Of a stretch of 64,000 nt of DNA, positions 28,814 through 39,604 are shown piece by piece. The stretch is from contig NZ_SACM01000001.1 of NCBI RefSeq assembly GCF_004004565.1, positions 558,001 through 622,000 of the forward strand. The letters are read 5' to 3'. The stretch is from Inhella crocodyli (lineage in GTDB: Bacteria > Pseudomonadota > Gammaproteobacteria > Burkholderiales > Burkholderiaceae_C). The notes below the pieces were generated by a model, which was given only the letters and a program-made list of their open reading frames with translations, ran no database searches and had not been told where the DNA came from. A program made the position numbers and the translations under genes. The first letter of the stretch is position 1. Every line of letters begins with the position of its first letter.

Positions 28814-30238
28814 TCAGGGCGTGGGGCCGCCTGCGTCCCAGCGCCCGCCCAAGGCCCGCAGCAAGGCCACGCGGTTGGCCTGCTCGGCCTGCCGCAGCGT
28901 CACCAAGGCCTGTTGGGCCGTGCTGAGTTGGCGCTGGGCGTCCAGCCATTCCAACTGGCTGGAGGCCCCCAGCCGGTAGCTGGCCTCGGCCAGCGTCAGG
29001 CTGCGCTGGGCGGATTGCACCTGGGCGGTGCCCGCGGCCAAGCGCTCGGCCAGGCTGTCGCGCACGGCCAGGGCATCGGCCACCTCGCGGAAGGCGGTTT
29101 GCAGCACGCCCTCGTAGTTGGCGATGGCCTGCTGCCGGCTGGCCTGGGTCACCGCCACCTGGGCGGCCCGGGCGCCGCCGTCGAACAGCGGCAGGTCCAG
29201 CTGTGGCACCAGGCTCCAGAAGCCCGTGCCGCTCTTGAACAGGCCATCGAGCTCCGGGCTGCGGGTGCCCACGGTGGCGGTCAGGCTCAGGCGCGGGAAG
29301 CGGGCGGCGCGGGCAGCGCCCACGTCGAACGCGGCCGCTTGCAGTTGCTGCTCGGCGGCGCGCACGTCGGGCCGCTGCAGCAGCACGCTGGACGGCAAGC
29401 CGGCCGGCACGCTGGGCAGGGCCGTCACGGCCGCCGGCGCCAGCATCGGGTCGTCGCCCACCTGGGGCAGCAGCGTCTCGTCCAGGGGCTGGCCCGCCAG
29501 CAGCTCCAGCTGCAAGCGCGCCTGCGTCACCGCGGCGCGGCTGCGTGCCGCTTCGCCCCGGGCCGCCTCGAAGGCGGTTTGTGCGCGGGCGCGCACCAGC
29601 CCGGAGACCGCCCCCAAGCGGTACTGCTGCTCGGTCAGGTCCAGGCTGCGCTGCTGGCTGTCGCGCAAGGCCTCGGCCAAGCGCAGACGCTGCTGCTCGG
29701 CCGCCAAGGCCAGCCAGGCGTTGCTCACCTCGGCCACCAGGCTCAGGCGCGCCGCGGCCTGGGTCTCTTGCTGGCCCAAGAAGCGCACCAAGGCCGCGCC
29801 TTGCAAGCTGCCCAAGCGGTCGAACAAGTCGATCTCGTACCGCGCCAAGCCCACGCTCACCGCGTAAGTCGTGGCGGTGTTGCCCGCCACACGCTGGCGC
29901 GTGGCGCTGGTGCTGGCGTCCAGGTCGGGAATGCGGTCGGCCTGGGTGATGGCGTACTGCGCCCGCACCCGCTCCACCGCCGCGGCGCTGGCGCGCAGGC
30001 TGCGGTTGTGCTGCAAGGCCAGACCCACCACCTGCCGCAACCGCGGCTCGGTGAAGAAGGCGTCCCATTCGCTGCCCGCCTCGGCGCCCGTCGCGGCCGA
30101 CAAGGGCGCGTCCAGGCGGAAGTCGTCGCGCAAGCGCACCGTGTCGGCCTCGCGGGCCGGCACCAGGCTGCCGCAACCGGCCAGGGTGCCGCTCAAGACG
30201 GCGGTGGCCAGCACCACCCAGGTGATCCTGGCCTTCAT
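28814..30238 (-). CDS. Outer-membrane efflux lipoprotein, pump B (NodT/OprM family)
   Basis: A 474-residue outer-membrane factor that forms the exit duct of the tripartite pump. The signal ends at LSGTLAGCGSL, a lipobox, and the mature protein has two repeats with long helices typical of TolC-like channels (LVAEVSNAWLALAAEQQRLRLAEAL; QASRQQAIANYEGVLQTAFREVADAL). Between them are LPSSVLLQRPDVRAAEQQLQAA and ARAARFPRLSLTATVG, the family hallmarks. Its ATG overlaps the permease stop by four bases (ATGA), so translation is coupled. It is the only outer-membrane factor encoded near any of the three pumps in the window. Confidence 0.93.
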   Translation of the reverse strand: MKARITWVVLATAVLSGTLAGCGSLVPAREADTVRLRDDFRLDAPLSAATGAEAGSEWDAFFTEPRLRQVVGLALQHNRSLRASAAAVERVRAQYAITQADRIPDLDASTSATRQRVAGNTATTYAVSVGLARYEIDLFDRLGSLQGAALVRFLGQQETQAAARLSLVAEVSNAWLALAAEQQRLRLAEALRDSQQRSLDLTEQQYRLGAVSGLVRARAQTAFEAARGEAARSRAAVTQARLQLELLAGQPLDETLLPQVGDDPMLAPAAVTALPSVPAGLPSSVLLQRPDVRAAEQQLQAAAFDVGAARAARFPRLSLTATVGTRSPELDGLFKSGTGFWSLVPQLDLPLFDGGARAAQVAVTQASRQQAIANYEGVLQTAFREVADALAVRDSLAERLAAGTAQVQSAQRSLTLAEASYRLGASSQLEWLDAQRQLSTAQQALVTLRQAEQANRVALLRALGGRWDAGGPTP

Positions 30239-33200
30239 GCCTGGGCCTCCGGCTGGCGGGCCAAGCGCTGCTTGACCCAGAGGTAGAACAGGGGCACGAA
30301 GAAGATGCCCAGGGCCGTGGCGCTGGCCATGCCGCCCAGCACGCCAAAGCCGATGGCCTTTTGCGACCCCGAGCCCGCGCCGCTGGCGTAGGCCAGGGGC
30401 AACACGCCCATCATGAAGGCGAGCGAGGTCATCAGGATGGGCCGCAGGCGCTGCCGGCTGGCCTTCAGGGTCGCCTCCAGCAGGCCCATGCCCTGGTCCA
30501 TCAGGGACTGTGCGAACTCCACGATCAAGATCGCGTTCTTGGCCGACAGGCCCACCGTCGTGAGCAAGCCCACCTGGAAGAACACGTCGTTGTTCTGCCC
30601 GCCCAAATGGCTGGCGACGAGCGCACCAAAAATGCCCAGGGGCACCACCAGCATCACGCTGAAGGGCACCGACCAGCTTTCGTACAGCGCCGCCAAGCAC
30701 AGGAAGATGAACAGCACCGACACCGCGTACAGCAGCGGGGCCTGGTCGCCGCTCAGGCGCTCCTGGTACGAGCGGCCCGACCACTCGTAGCCGATGCCCG
30801 GGGGCATCTCGCGCAGCACCTCTTCCATGGCCTTCATCGCCGCGCCCGAGCTCACACCCGGCGGCACGTCGGACTGGATCTCGTAGGCCGAACTGCCGTT
30901 GTAGCGCACCAGTTGGCGCGGGCCGTTGATCCAGCTGCTCGTGGCGAAGGCCGCGAACGACACCATCTGGCCGCTGTTGTTGCGAACAAACCAGCGCTGA
31001 ATGGCCTCGGGGTCGGCCCGGAAGGCGCCCTCCCCTTGCACCAGCACGCGCTTGACCCGGCCGCGGTCGATGAAATCGTTGACGTAGGCCCCCCCCAGCG
31101 CGATGGACATGGTTTCGTTGATGACGCTGGGCGACACGCCCAGAACGCCGGCCTTGTGGTCGTCGATGCGGATCTGCAACTGCGGCGTCTCGGTCAGGCT
31201 GTTGGTGCGCGTGCGGCTGAGCTCCGGGCGCTGGTTGGCCAGCTCGATGAGTTGCTCGCGCGCCTCGATCAGCTTGTCTTGCCCCAGGCCCCCCAGGTCT
31301 TGCAGGAAGAGCTGGATGCCGGCGCTGCCACCCAGGCCGCGCACGGTCGGGGGCATGACGATGAAGATGTTGGCGTCGCGCACCCGGCGGCCCAGCTCGC
31401 GCGAGAAGCGCTCGGACAAGGCCGCCGCGCTTTGCTCGGGCCGGGGGCGGTCTTTCCAGTCGGTCAGGCGGATGAAGCCTTGGCCCGAACCCTGGTCGCC
31501 GCCCGCGCCGCGCACCACGTTGTAGAACATCACTTCCTTCTGGTCGGCCAGGTAGGCCTCCAGCTGCTGCATCACCGCTTCCAGGCGCTCGTTGGTGGCG
31601 CCCGGCGCCATGCGCACCTGGATCTGCAAGCCGCCTTGGTCTTCGTCGGGCAGGAAGGAGGTGGGCAGGCTCTTGTACATCCAGGCCATGCCGCCGATCA
31701 CCAGCAGGTACACGGCGAAGCTGCGCACCCCACGGCTCGTCAACCACTGCACCTGGCGCACGTAGCGCTCGGTGAAGCGGTCAAAGCCGCGGTTGAAGCC
31801 GCCGAAGAACCAGTTCAGCGGCTTGCCCAGCAGCCCGGTGTGCGTGGCGTGCTCGCCCTTGCCCACCGGCTTGAGCACCGTGGCGCACAGCGCCGGCGAC
31901 AGGGTCATCGCCACCAGCACCGACAGCACCATGGCGCTCACCACCGTGATGCTGAACTGCCGGTAAATGATGCCGGTCGAGCCCCCGAAGAAGGCCATGG
32001 GGATGAACACCGCCGACAGCACGACGGCAATGCCCACCAACGCGCCGGTGATCTCCTTCATGCTCTTGCGCGTGGCCTCCTTGGGCGACAGGCCCTCCTC
32101 GCGCATCAGGCGTTCGACGTTTTCCACCACCACGATGGCGTCGTCCACCAAAAGGCCAATCGCCAGCACCAGGCCGAACATGGTCAGCGAGTTGATCGAG
32201 AACCCCGCCACCGACAGCACGCCGAAGGTGCCCAGCAGCACCACCGGCACGGCAATCGCCGGGATCAGCGTGGCCCGCAGGTTCTGCATGAACAGGTACA
32301 TGATGGCCACCACCAGCACGATGGCCTCGATCAGCGTTTGCACCACGCCCTTGATCGACACGCTGATGAAGGGCGTCGTGTCGAAAGTGACCGTGGCCTT
32401 GTAGCCCGGCGGGAAGAAGGGCTCCAGCTCCTTGAGCTTGGCCTTCACCGCGTCGCCCGTGGCCAGCGCGTTGGCGCCGCTGGCCGGGAAGATGGCCATG
32501 CCGGCCGCCGTGGTGCCGCTGGAGCGCACGTTGGTCGTGTAGCTGTCGCGCCCCAACTCCACGCGGGCCACTTGCCCCAAGCGAAGGGCCGAGCCATCGG
32601 GCTGCACGCGCAGGATGACGTTCTTGAATTCCTGGGCCGTGGTGAGCTTGGAGCGCGCCGTGATGATGGCCGTCAGCCGCTGCCCGGCGGGCGCCGGCAG
32701 CGCCCCGATCTGACCCGCCGAGACCTCGGTGTTTTGCTGCAGCAGCGCCGTGCGGATGTCGCCCGGCACCAGGTTGTAGCGCTGCAGTTGCAGCGGGTCC
32801 AACCAAATGCGCATGGCGTAGCCCGAGCCGAACACGTTCACGTCGCCCACGCCTTCCACGCGGCTGATGATGTCCACCAGGGTCGAGTTCAGGTAGTCGC
32901 CCAGGTCGCCCGAGGTCACGCTCGGGTCCTCGCTGGTCAACATCATGACCATCAAAAAGTCCACGCCGGACTTGTTGACGCGCACGCCTTGGGCCTGCAC
33001 AGCCTGCGGCAGGCGGCTGATGATGGACTGCACCTTGTTCTGCACCTGCACCTGCGCGGTGTCGGGGTCGGTGCCGGCCACGAAGGTCAGCGTGGTGCTG
33101 GCGTTGCCCGTGGCGCTGCTGGTCGACTCGATGGACAGCAGGCCGTCGATGCCCTTGAGGCTCTGCTCCACGATCTGCGTCACCGAGTCCTCGATGGCCT

Positions 33201-33363
33201 TGGCCGAGGCGCCCGGGTAGCTGGTGTTGATCGACACCCGCGTCGGCGCGATGTCGGGGTAACGCTCCAGCGCCAGCTTGTGGATGGCGCCGGCGCCGGC
33301 CAGCATGATGACGATGGCGATGACCCACGCAAAGATGGGCCGGTCGATGAAAAACGAGGCCAT
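30235..33363 (-). CDS. RND efflux permease, pump B (HAE1 type)
   Basis: A 1042-residue hydrophobic-amphiphilic efflux permease, close to AcrB/MexB/MexF in length. It starts FFIDRPIFAWVIAIVIM, the first helix motif of the HAE1 group, and has YPGASAKAIEDSVTQIVEQSL. TM4 carries LAIGLLVDDAIVVVENVERLM with the Asp pair for proton relay, and there are large periplasmic loops. The second half has VGLLTTVGLSAKNAILIVEFAQ and SLAFMMGVLPLAYASGAGSG. It lies between its adaptor gene (three-base gap) and the outer-membrane factor gene (four-base overlap): one adaptor-permease-channel operon, expected to expel drugs, dyes or solvents. No regulator is adjacent. Confidence 0.95.
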   Translation of the reverse strand: MASFFIDRPIFAWVIAIVIMLAGAGAIHKLALERYPDIAPTRVSINTSYPGASAKAIEDSVTQIVEQSLKGIDGLLSIESTSSATGNASTTLTFVAGTDPDTAQVQVQNKVQSIISRLPQAVQAQGVRVNKSGVDFLMVMMLTSEDPSVTSGDLGDYLNSTLVDIISRVEGVGDVNVFGSGYAMRIWLDPLQLQRYNLVPGDIRTALLQQNTEVSAGQIGALPAPAGQRLTAIITARSKLTTAQEFKNVILRVQPDGSALRLGQVARVELGRDSYTTNVRSSGTTAAGMAIFPASGANALATGDAVKAKLKELEPFFPPGYKATVTFDTTPFISVSIKGVVQTLIEAIVLVVAIMYLFMQNLRATLIPAIAVPVVLLGTFGVLSVAGFSINSLTMFGLVLAIGLLVDDAIVVVENVERLMREEGLSPKEATRKSMKEITGALVGIAVVLSAVFIPMAFFGGSTGIIYRQFSITVVSAMVLSVLVAMTLSPALCATVLKPVGKGEHATHTGLLGKPLNWFFGGFNRGFDRFTERYVRQVQWLTSRGVRSFAVYLLVIGGMAWMYKSLPTSFLPDEDQGGLQIQVRMAPGATNERLEAVMQQLEAYLADQKEVMFYNVVRGAGGDQGSGQGFIRLTDWKDRPRPEQSAAALSERFSRELGRRVRDANIFIVMPPTVRGLGGSAGIQLFLQDLGGLGQDKLIEAREQLIELANQRPELSRTRTNSLTETPQLQIRIDDHKAGVLGVSPSVINETMSIALGGAYVNDFIDRGRVKRVLVQGEGAFRADPEAIQRWFVRNNSGQMVSFAAFATSSWINGPRQLVRYNGSSAYEIQSDVPPGVSSGAAMKAMEEVLREMPPGIGYEWSGRSYQERLSGDQAPLLYAVSVLFIFLCLAALYESWSVPFSVMLVVPLGIFGALVASHLGGQNNDVFFQVGLLTTVGLSAKNAILIVEFAQSLMDQGMGLLEATLKASRQRLRPILMTSLAFMMGVLPLAYASGAGSGSQKAIGFGVLGGMASATALGIFFVPLFYLWVKQRLARQPEAQA

Positions 33364-33366
33364 GGC

Positions 33367-34611
33367 TCAGCCCGCCTTGGCGGCCGAGGCGGCGGACGCG
33401 GCTGGCGCCGCCGGGGCCGGCCCACCGGCCTTGTCGCCCTTGCCCTCGCCTTTGCCCTCGCCCTTCTTCTTGGGCGACGAGCCCGCCGGCACCGGCGTCA
33501 CCGGCTGGTTGGGCCGGGCGCGCTGCAGGCCTTCCACGATCAGCTTGTCGCCGACCTTCAGGCCCTCGGTCACCAGCCACTGGTTGCCCACGGCCCGCTC
33601 CAGCTTCAGGCGGCGGCGCTCGGCCTTGTTGCCCTCGCCCACCACCAAGGCCGTGGCCTCGCCCGTGGCCGAGCGGCTCACGCCCTGCTGCGGCACCAAG
33701 ATCGCGCCGGCGTCCACGCCGGCCACCAGCTTGGCCGTCACCACCATGCCGGGCAGCAGCAAGCCCTGCGGGTTGGGCACCGTGGCGCGCAGGGTCACGG
33801 CGCCGGTGCCGCGGTCCACGGCCACGCCGTTCACCGTCAGCTGGCCCGGCAGCGGGTAGGCCGTGCCGTCTTCCAGCACCAGCTTCACTTGCTTGCTGCC
33901 GCCCTTGCCTTCCAGCTGGCGGCGCAGGGTCAGCATCTCGGTGCTGCTTTGCACGATGTCCACCTGCATCGGGTCCAACTGCTGCACCGTCGTCAGGGCC
34001 TGGGTTTGGTTGGCCGTCACCAAGGCGCCCGCGGTCACGGTGGAGATGTCCACCCGCCCCGCGATGGGCGAGGCGATGCGCGCGCGGGTCAACTGCACCT
34101 GCGCGGCGTCCATCGCAGCCCGGGCCACGGCCACGTCGGCCTGGGCTTGCAGCAAGGCGGCGGCGCTGTCGTCGGCCTGCTGGCGGCTGATGGCATCGGC
34201 CTTCAACAGTTCGGCATCGCGCGCCGCCTTGGTCTTGGCCACGGCCGCCTGGGCCTCGGCCTTTTGCAGCGCGGCGGCGGTGCGGGCGCGCTCGGCGGCC
34301 AACGCCGCGTCGTCCAGTTGGTACAGGGGCTGCCCAGCCTTCACCAGCGCGCCCTCGGTGAACAGGCGCTTCATCACCACGCCGCTCACCTGCGGGCGGA
34401 TCTCGGCCACCTGGCTCGCGCTCAGGCGGCCGGGCAGCGCCAACTCCATCGGCGCATCGGCCGTGCCCACCGTCACCACGCCCACCTCGGGCGCGCCGCC
34501 GCCCGGCTTCTTGGGGGCCTCGTCGGCCGACTTCTGGCAACCGCTGATCAGCAAAGCCGCCAAGGCCACAACACCCAGCGGACGAACGGAGTTCACAAAA
34601 ACTTTAGGCAT
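33367..34611 (-). CDS. RND periplasmic adaptor lipoprotein, pump B
   Basis: A 414-residue AcrA/MexA-like adaptor. The signal VVALAALLISGCQKS has a lipobox, so it is anchored by lipid in the inner membrane. Then come LALPGRLSASQVAEIRPQVSGVVMKRLFTEGALVKAGQPLYQLDDAALAAER (lipoyl half), a long hairpin rich in Ala, TRARIASPIAGRVDISTV and the barrel domain with LPGMVVTAKLVAGV. The C-terminal tail is Lys/Glu/Gly-rich followed by Ala/Pro. The ATG at 34611 fits the signal peptide; codons upstream of it are not signal-like. First gene of the pump B operon. Confidence 0.93.
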   Translation of the reverse strand: MPKVFVNSVRPLGVVALAALLISGCQKSADEAPKKPGGGAPEVGVVTVGTADAPMELALPGRLSASQVAEIRPQVSGVVMKRLFTEGALVKAGQPLYQLDDAALAAERARTAAALQKAEAQAAVAKTKAARDAELLKADAISRQQADDSAAALLQAQADVAVARAAMDAAQVQLTRARIASPIAGRVDISTVTAGALVTANQTQALTTVQQLDPMQVDIVQSSTEMLTLRRQLEGKGGSKQVKLVLEDGTAYPLPGQLTVNGVAVDRGTGAVTLRATVPNPQGLLLPGMVVTAKLVAGVDAGAILVPQQGVSRSATGEATALVVGEGNKAERRRLKLERAVGNQWLVTEGLKVGDKLIVEGLQRARPNQPVTPVPAGSSPKKKGEGKGEGKGDKAGGPAPAAPAASAASAAKAG

Positions 34612-34680
34612 AACCCGGCATCTTGCCCCACGGGCTGACCAGGAGCCGAAGGACACCCCGCAAAGGCCTTGGGGCCTGGC

Positions 34681-34721
34681 GGGTGCCCGCCCCGTGCGGC
34701 AACCCCGTGCGGGGGGCACCC
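34681..34721. repeat. GC-rich inverted repeat upstream of pump B operon
   Basis: The arms gggtgccc and gggcaccc enclose a second weaker pairing, giving a stable hairpin without T-tract. It lies between the start of the pump B adaptor gene and the stop of the secreted-protein gene on the same strand. It could be a terminator for the latter or part of the pump leader. Confidence 0.5.
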
Positions 34722-36281: not shown

Positions 36282-36410
36282 GGCTAGCGTTGAGTTGACC
36301 GGACCGCGGAGGCAGACCGCGCCTTGCCGCGTAAGGCCACTGAGCACGCTTGCCCTTGAGCGGCCAGGCCCCGCCTGCGGTGGCGGGTCCGGTTGAACGA
36401 CAGGTTCGGC
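36282..36410 (-). other. attC recombination site 4 (about 129 bases)
   Basis: Read on the - strand it begins with the core-like GCCGAAC at 36404-36410 and ends at GCTAGCC at 36282-36288, where GTTRRRY is expected. The two arms are complementary over long stretches: an accgga-containing block of one arm pairs with its counterpart in the other and both continue in GC-rich stems. Length is like that of long attC sites. It follows the GFA gene directly, with its 3' core degenerate. Confidence 0.65.
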
Positions 36411-36431
36411 CGCACTCTTGTGCCGCGGCTG

Positions 36432-36821
36432 CTAGAACCACAAGTCTTTTACGCACTTGCCATCGTCAGGCCGGCTCTCCCACTTGTCCAGCCCATCGAA
36501 GTGACGGACGGGTACGCGCTCAATGGGTCCAGGCTCAGCCAGACGAAGGTTGACAGCAACTCTGCGCCGACCTTGTTCATCAACGGAAAGGCCCCTCCAA
36601 TGGCTGACGTTTCCGCACTTGGGGCAAAAGTTGAAACTCAGCGAGTCCCCTCGGACGAACGCAGTCGTTTCACCCGAGAAGGTGACGTCCTCTCCTTCCC
36701 AGCCATAGGCCCACAGCGTTCCATACCTTCTGCACGCCGTGCAGCTGCAGGCCGTGGCGGTCTTTGGCACGTCCTTGAGAGACCAGCGAGCGGTGCCACA
36801 CAGGCATGTTCCATCAATCAT
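36432..36821 (-). CDS. Integron cassette 4: GFA/CENP-V-type zinc protein
   Basis: A 129-residue protein of the GFA family (named after a glutathione-dependent formaldehyde-activating enzyme). The zinc-binding cysteines are in place: GTCLCGTARW, ATACSCTACRRYG and FNFCPKCGNVSHWRG. No glutathione specificity can be inferred, as most members are uncharacterised. The ATG at 36821 starts directly at MIDGTCLCG; an upstream ATG at 36890 would lie inside attC site 3 and is rejected. Lower GC than the flanking chromosome and a position between two attC sites identify it as a mobile gene cassette on the - strand. Confidence 0.85.
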   Translation of the reverse strand: MIDGTCLCGTARWSLKDVPKTATACSCTACRRYGTLWAYGWEGEDVTFSGETTAFVRGDSLSFNFCPKCGNVSHWRGLSVDEQGRRRVAVNLRLAEPGPIERVPVRHFDGLDKWESRPDDGKCVKDLWF

Positions 36822-36871
36822 GGGGACCTTGTTGGTGGGTGGGGAAGACTTCAGATCGTGGCGGTTGGTCG

Positions 36872-36940
36872 GCCCAACCTTTGAATTCAACGGACCAGTC
36901 AGCGCAGCTGGCTCAGGGCTGGTGCAACGAAGGGTTCGGC
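36872..36940 (-). other. attC recombination site 3 (about 69 bases)
   Basis: On the - strand it starts GCCGAAC (36934-36940), continues with a CTTCGTT element and ends TTCAAAG followed by GTTGGGC (36872-36878), which fits the GTTRRRY core. The arms share an ACCAG/CTGGT pairing. It follows the stop of the exported-protein cassette by eight bases. Confidence 0.7.
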
Positions 36941-36947
36941 AGCTGTG

Positions 36948-37397
36948 TCAATGCGTGTCGATCTTCAAACTGCCCGATTCGACCGCCACTTCAAGCCTCA
37001 ATGCAAGCGTGCCATCTTTTGTGTGAATGAACCAAAAGGATGCAGGGGCTCCGCACTTCATCTTATTTTTATGGGGCCCAATGGTATGTACTCCCGCATT
37101 GGCGCCCCCACCAAGTGTTTTGATCGCTTCGCTTGTGAATTCGCAGTAGTTCTTAAATAGCCCAGCCTTGTCAGTTGCGCGGGCGCTTATTTGCTGCGCA
37201 CTGCTGGTTTGAAGGCGGAAGAAATTTTCTGGCACCTGGGACTTGCAAGCCGCTGCCATTGAATTCAAAAGGGCAACCGACTCTCCTTTCATTATGTCCT
37301 GCGGAGTAGCATTTCTTGCTTTAGAGCAATCTTGGGCAGAAGCACCATTCAATGCAGCGAGCACGGCAAGTACTATTCCAATAGAAAACTTCTTCAT
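36948..37397 (-). CDS. Integron cassette 3: small exported Cys-containing protein
   Basis: A 149-residue protein with a clean Sec signal (FSIGIVLAVLAALNGASA) and a mature part with four Cys residues (QDCSKA, AACKSQ, NYCEF, KMKCGAP), suggesting two disulfides. Other visible segments are ENFFRLQTSSAQQISARATDK and GPHKNKMKCGAPASFWFIHTKDGTLALRLEVAVESGSLKI. I recognise no family. Base composition is the lowest of any gene in the window, in line with recent acquisition. AAAGGAAA lies before the ATG, and attC sites 2 and 3 flank it. Confidence 0.75.
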   Translation of the reverse strand: MKKFSIGIVLAVLAALNGASAQDCSKARNATPQDIMKGESVALLNSMAAACKSQVPENFFRLQTSSAQQISARATDKAGLFKNYCEFTSEAIKTLGGGANAGVHTIGPHKNKMKCGAPASFWFIHTKDGTLALRLEVAVESGSLKIDTH

Positions 37398-37428
37398 TCA
37401 TTTTCCTTTGGCAAACAAGGGTTCAGAG

Positions 37429-37497
37429 GTCCAACGTTGAAGCTGAGCTGCGAGCGGCGGCTTGCCGACGCGAGTAGGCTCTAGCGACTGGTTAGGC
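37429..37497 (-). other. attC recombination site 2 (69 bases)
   Basis: On the - strand the site begins GCCTAAC (37491-37497) and ends TTCAAC then GTTGGAC (37429-37435), both matching the consensus cores RYYYAAC and GTTRRRY. The inner part is an imperfect GC-rich palindrome. The TAA of its first core supplies the stop codon of cassette 2. Confidence 0.85.
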
Positions 37498-37770
37498 ATC
37501 ACTTTGCTCGATGTGCCAAGTGAAAACCACAAAGTCATTTGGGTCCAATGCAAAGCTCTTCCAAATAGCAGGCTCGTCGGCGAGATTGAATTCCCACACA
37601 TCGACGAACCGGCCAGGTTGAGGCCTACGCACATGAATGGGGCCTGCAGGCCAACGTGTCGAAGTCCGAGCAAGACCACCCGCCACGTCCAAGGCCCTTT
37701 CGATCGTCATCGGCGGCGCCACTTCATGGCGCCCAGGATTTGCAACAGCACCGCTAATCAGCACAGACAT
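37492..37770 (-). CDS. Integron cassette 2: stand-alone SLBB-like domain protein
   Basis: A 92-residue protein whose first half, VLISGAVANPGRHEVAPPMTIERALDVAGGL, is the soluble-ligand-binding beta-grasp (SLBB) motif seen in polysaccharide export proteins such as Wza. It has no signal peptide and no other domain. The rest, PAGPIHVRRPQPGRFVDVWEFNLADEPAIWKSFALDPNDFVVF, is not assigned to a family but continues the beta pattern. The TAA stop is formed by the attC core of site 2. The ATG lies 25 bases after the end of site 1, without a strong ribosome-binding site, as is common in gene cassettes. Confidence 0.7.
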   Translation of the reverse strand: MSVLISGAVANPGRHEVAPPMTIERALDVAGGLARTSTRWPAGPIHVRRPQPGRFVDVWEFNLADEPAIWKSFALDPNDFVVFTWHIEQSDA

Positions 37771-37795
37771 GATCTCAACTCGATCTTGGATCGAT

Positions 37796-37862
37796 GCCTA
37801 ACGTTCCGGATCACCGGCGGGGCCGCGTAGCGGCACCGTCCGAGTGCATGCGGTGGTTAGGC
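37796..37862 (-). other. attC recombination site 1 (67 bases)
   Basis: On the - strand: GCCTAAC (37856-37862), a partly palindromic middle with a GCCGC/GCGGC hairpin, and GTTAGGC (37796-37802). Both cores fit RYYYAAC and GTTRRRY exactly. It starts four bases after the stop of cassette 1. Confidence 0.9.
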
Positions 37863-37865
37863 ATC

Positions 37866-38291
37866 TCATGACGAATGCCCGAACAAAGAAGCGAACAGTT
37901 GGGGATCAAATGGGGAACCAAAGGGGCCCTTTTTGATTAGGCTTCGGCTAAAACCATATTTGCAGTGGCTATCGACAAATCCCATCGTGACACCATCGAA
38001 TTGAATGGCAACCGCTTCACCATCAGGAGCCCAAATGAACTCAATATTAGAGGGGATTGGCCCCGGATCTGGATAGGAAACAAACTCTCGAGTTGCTGGT
38101 GGCGCGGTGCGCATCTCCCTGAATTCATGTATTGAACTAGGCGCAGAGATTCTGTTCTGAAGCCAACAATCGGAAACGATCTGGCTGCCATCCGGAGAGG
38201 TTAGGTACAACCAAATTGCAGGCCCCTCATCCACAACCTGGGCGACCCGGCCCGAGTTCGGATGCTGATCTGAGAATTCGAGGGTGCCCAC
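37866..38291 (-). CDS. Integron cassette 1: conserved-looking protein of unknown function
   Basis: A 141-residue soluble protein with no signal or helix-spanning segment. It reads RVAQVVDEGPAIWLYLTSPDGSQIVSDCWLQNR, then a Pro-rich turn (RTAPPATREFVSYPDPGPIPS), IEFIWAPDGEAVAIQFDGVTMGFVDSH and YGFSRSLIKKGPFGSPFD. I do not recognise a named family. The GTG start at 38291 sits seven bases from the attI core, without a clear ribosome-binding site, so it is the cassette next to the integrase. TGA at 37866-37868 is followed at once by attC site 1. GC is lower than in the flanks. Confidence 0.65.
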   Translation of the reverse strand: MGTLEFSDQHPNSGRVAQVVDEGPAIWLYLTSPDGSQIVSDCWLQNRISAPSSIHEFREMRTAPPATREFVSYPDPGPIPSNIEFIWAPDGEAVAIQFDGVTMGFVDSHCKYGFSRSLIKKGPFGSPFDPQLFASLFGHSS

Positions 38292-38297
38292 AGAGGT

Positions 38298-38362
38298 GCC
38301 TAACTTGTTGTAGGGCGCACTTCGGCGCGGTTTATCAAGGTCACCCGCGCCCTAACAGGCTG
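38298..38362 (-). other. attI-type integration site
   Basis: On the - strand the end reads CGCCCTACAACAAGTTAGGC (38298-38317), nearly the same as the class 1 attI end, CGCCCTAAAACAAAGTTAGGC as I recall it, including the recombination core GTTAGGC. A second GTTAGGG core-like element lies at about 38350-38356. Outward pairing of TAGGGCGC with GCGCCCTA spans 38311-38355. Cassette 1 starts right after it. The outer limit is inferred. Confidence 0.75.
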
Positions 38363-38409
38363 ACGGCCAGCGTGCACAAGTGTTTGTTGCTCAATGAAGA
38401 TTGGGGGCA

Positions 38410-38438
38410 TTGACTGTACGTTCATCCAGTACTAACTT
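38410..38438 (+). promoter_or_regulatory. Probable intI promoter with LexA box
   Basis: A -35-like TTGACT (38410-38415) and a weaker -10-like TAACTT (38433-38438) are 17 bases apart and read toward intI. Between and overlapping them lies CTG-N10-CAG (38414-38429), the classic LexA-box spacing, with CTGT at one end and CAGT at the other. Integron integrase promoters in many bacteria are under SOS control through such a box. Confidence 0.65.
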
Positions 38439-38499
38439 CGCCGACAAATGGCGCGCCTGTTACCGGTGCGAAGCTCGCCACGAAGCAGGAGGAACCCCC

Positions 38500-39604
38500 A
38501 TGTTGCCCTCGGCACCTCGCCTCACGCCGGTCTCACGCGCCGCACTTCGGCCGGCTCCTGTCCTCGAACTGCCGCCACTTCGCTCTGTGCGCCTGCTGGG
38601 CCAAGTGCGGGAGCGCTTGCGCATGCTGCACTACAGCCTGCGAACGGAAGAAGCGTACTTGCACTGGTGCAAGGCCTTCATCCGCTTCCACCAGCTTCGC
38701 CACCCAGCCGAGATGGGGGGCCAGAGGTGGAGTCCTTCCTGACGCACTTGGCCGCGGACCGCGGACGGTCGGTGTCCAGCCATCGGCAGGCGCTGTCAGC
38801 GTTGCTGTTCCTGTATGGAAAGGTGCTGGGCCAGCAGTTGCCGTGGATGCAGGAGATCGGGCGGCCGGTGCCTCGCCGGCGCTTGCCGGTGGTGCTGACG
38901 CCCGACGAAGTGGCCGCTGTGCTGGGGCGCATGACGGGCGTGCATGGGCTGCTGGCGCGGTTGCTGTACGGGACCGGCATGCGCATCACCGAAGGCTTGC
39001 GGCTGCGCGTGAAGGACATCGACTTTGCACAGCGGGCCGTCATCGTGCGCGAGGGCAAAGGCGGGAAGGACCGGGTGGTGATGCTGCCGCTCTCCCTGGT
39101 TCAGCCCTTGCGCGAGCACCTGACAGCCGTGCGCGCGGTGTGGGCGTCCGATGTGGAGGCTGGGTGCTCGGGGGTTGAGTTGCCGAGCGCTTTGGATCAA
39201 AAGTACCCACGCGCTGCACACGCTTGGAGTTGGTTTTGGGTGTTCCCGCAGGGTCAGCATTTGACCGACCCACGCAGCGGGGTGGTGCGCCGGCATCATC
39301 TGTCTGACGAGACCTTTCAGCGGGCTTTCAAGCGGGCCGTCACAGCGGCTGGGGTGCCCAAGCTGGCGTCGCCGCATACTGAGCCTGGCGAAGGACGGGG
39401 GCATGCAGGCCCCCGGCGTGGAGGCACTCATTCGCCACGCACCTGCTGCAAAGCGGCTCGGACATCCGAACCGTGCAGGAACTGCTGGGCCACGCCGATG
39501 TGGCGACCACCATGATTGACACGCACGGGCTGAAGCTGGGCGGTGGCGCGGTGCGCAGCGCGCTGGATGCACTGGACACAGCCCTCGCGACGGCAACCGC
39601 GTAG
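38500..39604 (+). pseudogene. intI: Broken integron integrase gene (intI)
   Basis: A tyrosine recombinase of the integron IntI type, no longer encoded by one frame. The start at 38500 has AGGAGGAA upstream. Frame 1 encodes [31 protein letters not shown] to about 38715. After a run of six G (38715-38720) coding moves to a second frame carrying [35 protein letters not shown] (first catalytic Arg), the extra IntI-specific patch [20 protein letters not shown] and [15 protein letters not shown]. Near 39380-39420 about 40 bases are inserted, and the rest ([15 protein letters not shown], then [17 protein letters not shown]) is in a third frame. The catalytic Tyr of the usual TMIYTH is Asp here (TMIDTH), so the enzyme is certainly inactive. 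Confidence 0.9.

Follow-up and report, generated by a model that had tools for sequence, protein, structure and literature searches.

The integron integrase, IntI, inserts cassettes by recombining the attI site with attC sites folded from their bottom strand, and SOS stress relieves the LexA repression of its gene, intI. In the available text of a study on Xanthomonas, intI has been inactivated repeatedly, the arrays are stable and remote clusters of attC sites lacking integron-integrases (CALINs) are present (PMC12444791). A survey of intI genes, in its available part, counted nearly one third as pseudogenes and reported that 20% of integron bearers had more than one (PMC2426708). Here we describe an integron in Inhella crocodyli (Burkholderiales), found in a 64-kb stretch of DNA (G000:C9:558001-622000, hereafter the window) on a chromosomal contig of 1.7 Mb, in a genome of 3.76 Mb and 17 contigs. 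With a probability of about 0.95, we read it as a sedentary chromosomal integron belonging to an Inhella species, in which the integrase recently turned pseudogene, because a broken integrase, an attI site and four attC-tailed cassettes stand together, a search of the assembly brought up no other IntI, and in Inhella gelatinilytica 4Y10 the same left-hand gene adjoins an integrase of full length. The features are listed in Table 1.

An earlier note, made from the sequence alone, had described a broken IntI-type recombinase on the plus strand, and profile searches bear this out. The gene is split into three pieces (38500-38742, 38709-39380, and 39416-39604), each in a different frame. An integron-integrase model is the best scorer for every piece, so an IntI-type tyrosine recombinase (TIGR02249, NF011946) is present in pieces; a search of the whole genome picked out the same three places. 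Xer models also give scores for two of the pieces, the second and the third, as would be the case for a phage or Xer-type recombinase lying near chance palindromes, with no integron at all. However, NF011946 gives the middle piece 335.8 bits, against at most 71.1 for any Xer-type model, and four attC sites stand in line, with none convincing elsewhere in the 64 kb. The recombinase is therefore IntI rather than XerC/D or a phage integrase; the chance of the opposite is negligible, and by sequence comparison we regard it as already refuted by the IntI scores and the attC matches.

Three lesions, one of them at the catalytic tyrosine, leave the integron without a working integrase. The first is a frame change between the first two pieces. 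The second lies in the LRH catalytic box, where the window has 41 nt between residues that are separated by 3 nt in the 40 loci listed. The third is an Asp codon at the position of the catalytic tyrosine: 89 integrase loci were compared and all 87 that could be aligned at this residue have Tyr, although these are not 87 independent lines, as three of the 89 duplicate others and many are almost identical copies of class 1 type. The insert contains a hairpin with 10-nt arms (39396-39405 and 39406-39415) that are 90% complementary and have no spacer. A repetitive extragenic palindromic (REP)-like repeat was rejected as its source, since two patterns and a 61-base search turned up no further good copy in the source genome. 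One could imagine that the integrase is kept alive by recoding, through frameshifting and bypass of the hairpin insert, and both the hairpin and the well-kept remainder of the protein would fit. However, a recoded product would still carry Asp for Tyr and be no normal recombinase, and none of the 40 loci has the insert; we judge recoding to be very improbable.

Outside the lesions, the integrase is well preserved, with deviations in 4 of 133 near-invariant columns compared with 0-5 in 38 other loci (chosen at <93% mutual identity; four were dropped for gaps and the remainder as too similar). Additional decay of the integrase was rejected, as its count falls inside this range. Because the rest of the protein is so well kept, the death of the integrase looks recent by its sequence. 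The label “relic” in the earlier note thus overstates its age. A search of the whole assembly found no other IntI that might act in trans; its remaining integrase-like genes, three in number, are an XerD, above the cut-off, and an XerC-like and a Xer-like gene, both below it. Given the three lesions and this negative search, the expectation that the array should be frozen unless an integrase acts in trans was sound.

The attC sites were searched with a covariance model (R1) built from 29 attC sites, all outside the window, in which 10 of the 16 pairs have changes on both sides. R1 finds all four sites at the expected places in the 36282-37862 region, one for each of the four genes that read opposite to the integrase, and no other match within the 64 kb exceeds 10.3 bits (E 1.7). 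The array therefore consists of tandem attC cassettes with genes reading away from attI. In attC 4, the right core is degenerate and does not fit GTTRRRY, and R1 matches the first half only (36344-36410). In single-strand folding, attC 1 and attC 4 do better than their shuffles and attC 2 and attC 3 do not. As two of the four fold no better than shuffles, an integrase supplied in trans might be able to use only some of the sites.

The folding also bears on whether the integron is live and its lesions merely arose in sequencing or assembly. They are known from the assembly alone, the frame change adjoins a run of G, and the near-invariant columns are otherwise mostly intact. Against this, the three lesions are of different kinds, an insert and a codon change among them, and attC 2 and attC 3 have lost their advantage over shuffles, so that errors are an improbable explanation.

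Between the integrase and the cassettes lies the attI-like site that had been proposed. Its core, GTTAGGC, is at 38298-38304 on the minus strand; a GTTRRRY site was present in the scanned stretch of 8 of the 16 loci examined, the window included. The sequence CTACAACA precedes the core in the window and in five of the seven other loci with a core (15 others were examined). The core and the preceding sequence common to relatives thus point to a putative attI beside intI. Upstream of intI there is also a CTG-N10-CAG motif, which we take to be a LexA-type box. It was found within 300 nt upstream of intI in 74 of 80 loci, compared with 5 of 80 shuffled stretches, and still in 40 of 46, window included, once the 34 loci carrying the class 1 type box were set aside; in this survey the I. 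gelatinilytica place was counted twice (L038 and L053), as was the place of L045 and L058. These 46 loci are mostly from Burkholderiales, and the frequency of the motif among them contrasts with a report whose available text describes soil and freshwater species with chromosomal integrons as having normally lost LexA control (PMC3108266).

All four cassettes have open frames. As the earlier note had it, they are lower in guanine-cytosine (GC) content than their surroundings: the array has 0.557 compared with 0.686 for the window, only 10 of 1240 equal-length stretches reach or undercut that value, and each of the 15 lowest overlaps the array. In a survey of 399 family genomes, evenly drawn out of a larger group, cassettes 1 and 2 were each found in the source genome only, and cassette 3 in two genomes, the source included. 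The low GC and the rarity of these three genes are as expected of cassettes. The second copy of cassette 3 adjoins an attC array and is at most a candidate for a whole cassette. No cassette of the four had a PADLOC defense match, and a plasmid search with cassettes 1 and 3 gave no relatives at E up to 1e-5.

Table 1 Features of the Inhella crocodyli integron, in window positions
Feature	Position	Strand	Details
attC 4	36282..36410	minus	about 129 nt; first half 23.4 bits; whole-site fold z -2.64
Cassette 4 gene, GFA-family protein	36432..36890	minus	PF04828, 42.5 bits; likely start ATG at 36821 (by eye)
attC 3	36872..36940	minus	69 nt; 42.8 bits; fold z +0.31, hairpin no longer favored
Cassette 3 gene	36948..37397	minus	149 aa; no Pfam family; N-terminus signal-peptide-like (by eye)
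attC 2	37429..37497	minus	69 nt; 51.4 bits; fold z +0.28, hairpin no longer favored
Cassette 2 gene	37492..37770	minus	92 aa; SLBB-like, 25.6 bits, below the Pfam cut-off of 27
attC 1	37796..37862	minus	67 nt; 23.6 bits; fold z -3.31, folds well
Cassette 1 gene	37866..38291	minus	141 aa; no Pfam family
attI region (putative)	38298..38379	minus	sequence common to relatives
LexA-type box upstream of intI (presumed)	38412..38431	plus	CTG-N10-CAG, also upstream of many related intI
intI pseudogene (integron integrase)	38500..39604	plus	TIGR02249, NF011946; Pfam Phage_int_SAM_4, Phage_integrase
Frame change, intI piece 1 to piece 2	38709..38742	plus	piece ends and overlap
41-nt insert in LRH catalytic box of intI	39381..39421	plus	alignment with 40 loci
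Catalytic tyrosine position, Asp codon here	39518..39520	plus	Tyr in 87/87 aligned loci

A few genes to the left of the integron, at 30235-34719 on the minus strand, we recognized by eye an RND efflux pump with its partner, a membrane fusion protein. An Rfam scan of the window brought no family to its gathering threshold; whether Rfam contains attC families was not looked at.

The genus comparison covered six genomes, that of the window and five others (G001-G005). All five others have a full-length intI, so the gene is broken in one of six. Two intI matches occur in four of the five, and several intI lineages coexist in the genus. A comparison with related genomes had been suggested; in I. 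gelatinilytica the integrase is full length and the cassettes are different. The DUF gene (60% amino acid identity) and the GNAT gene (36%) stand to the left of the array as in the window, and a GFA gene related to cassette 4 (67%) ends the array. In a 50-row tree of the middle piece of the integrase, the window groups with Roseateles, Pelomonas, Rubrivivax and related rows in a clade of 16 (support 96/93), which also contains one Inhella row (L058, genome G004). Integrases of class 1 type, among them L088 and L094, which were taken as class 1 IntI1 by their spread over unrelated hosts, branch apart from it. A single Inhella lineage of intI was rejected (p-AU, from the approximately unbiased test, 0.0012) for a nine-row clade of the window and eight others, a test that left out the tenth genus row, L058, from the same contig as L045.

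Several observations weigh against our reading of a sedentary integron with a recently lost integrase. The site shared with the related species is seen in the left flank only, as the right-hand gene is different. The window integrase is 78% identical to Pelomonas/Roseateles copies compared with 74% to that of I. gelatinilytica, and a clade of the window and I. gelatinilytica integrases is not favored, yet not rejected (p-AU 0.22). The GFA gene may be a flanking gene in I. gelatinilytica, because no attC was found after it there at E up to 1. The frame change, taken alone, could be a sequencing error. On the cassette side, the other copy of cassette 3 has three attC matches upstream, whereas the 1.5 kb examined on its downstream side has none, and capture would have to be read from structure only, with cassettes 1 and 2 found in none of the other genomes searched. 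Finally, a simple scan of 38150-38900 gave no sigma-70-like promoter, so any transcription of the cassettes is presumptive.

Further attC matches are present in the same genome, on contigs C11, C14, C10, and perhaps C9. The C11 cluster (L137:5624-8341, or G000:C11:322623-325340) has eight attC matches on one strand and no integrase match nearby; by eye, it lies between a thioredoxin-like gene and truD, and one of its genes looks like a CPCC cysteine-rich protein. Clusters of the CALIN kind thus occur elsewhere in this genome; in function the window array would resemble them, but it still adjoins its intI pseudogene.

These sites allowed folding to be compared with that of live-integrase relatives. 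For the fairer comparison, we used one model and sites of at least 28 bits, which left 12 sites in the I. crocodyli genome, 2 in the window and 10 elsewhere. The mean fold z was -3.93 for 29 intI-adjacent sites of the Inhella relatives, -2.62 for 38 remote sites of the relatives, and -1.43 for the 12 own sites, and broken pairs, counted as cells, were 32/439, 48/579, and 24/191, respectively. The own sites differed from the relatives' remote sites (12 vs 38) with p 0.042 for z and 0.061 for broken pairs, from the remote sites of G002, a genome in one contig, with p 0.009 and 0.09, and from the 23 adjacent sites outside model training with p 0.00028 and 0.037; these sites are not independent, the p values are uncorrected for multiple tests, and a single genome has a broken integrase. 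The contrast is stronger with all 17 own sites (z -1.27 vs -2.46 for 41; p 0.023 and 0.0038) and is then biased towards decay, since own sites were gathered to E 10 and the relatives' remote stretches only around E<=0.01. Altogether, there is a hint that the sites of this genome fold worse than those of its relatives.

It is possible that integrase loss freed the attC sites from selection, and that the stems of the integron and of the remote clusters have lost pairing as a result, but we hold this tentatively and think it rather doubtful. The decay reading is weakened because the own remote sites, taken by themselves, show no significant difference from the relatives' remote sites at the same cut-off (10 vs 38; p 0.13 and 0.21). 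Moreover, the relatives' remote sites fold worse than their adjacent ones (z p 0.016, at least 28 bits), and therefore distance or age matters; some of these “remote” sites are in draft assemblies and could adjoin intI on another contig. The 28-bit cut also removes attC 1, which folds well, and attC 4, scored on its first half, which again counts against decay. If it were true, attC erosion would serve as a clock of the time since an integron fell silent, and if further genomes bore it out, sequence data would suffice to date the loss of an integrase.

The history we propose is as follows. A once-live IntI would have inserted circular cassettes at attI through the folded bottom strands of their attC sites, with the LexA box placing intI under SOS control. 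Once the integrase had died, the cassettes would have become ordinary resident genes, persisting or drifting in a fixed order, and their attC stems may since have begun to decay, as the folding suggests. The parts of the integron are still recognizable, and the enzyme should not work. The locus adds a description of integrons in Inhella, a genus for which a literature search found no paper that pairs its name with integron. Titles and abstract openings on attC folding, attC degeneration, CALINs, and inactive integrases announced no attC erosion after integrase loss.

Integrase inactivation is a common fate of integrons, and in this respect the locus is a known kind of finding; the hint of worse attC folding than in relatives would be its mildly new part. 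As in Xanthomonas, going by the available text (PMC12444791), a chromosomal integron has lost intI to changes of the frameshift, stop, or deletion kind, with stable arrays and CALINs elsewhere, but the lineage and the site are others, and inactivation is widespread there compared with one of six Inhella genomes. Like the pseudogenes in the available part of the intI survey (PMC2426708), the window intI has a frameshift and a major insertion; unlike them, it combines three kinds of lesion, the catalytic Tyr included. With class 1 IntI1 it shares the integrase family and 67% identity over the middle piece, but it sits on a different branch and is not a class 1 integron, a likeness judged from the integrase alone. 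Also among the closest systems is the I. gelatinilytica 4Y10 integron (L038 = L053), which has the same left DUF and GNAT genes, attI, LexA-type box, integrase orientation, attC sites, and GFA gene at the array end, and differs in its full-length integrase, five cassette-strand attC sites, other cassettes, and a different right-hand gene. The two thus form a natural pair beside the same left-hand gene, with the integrase full length in I. gelatinilytica and broken in the window.

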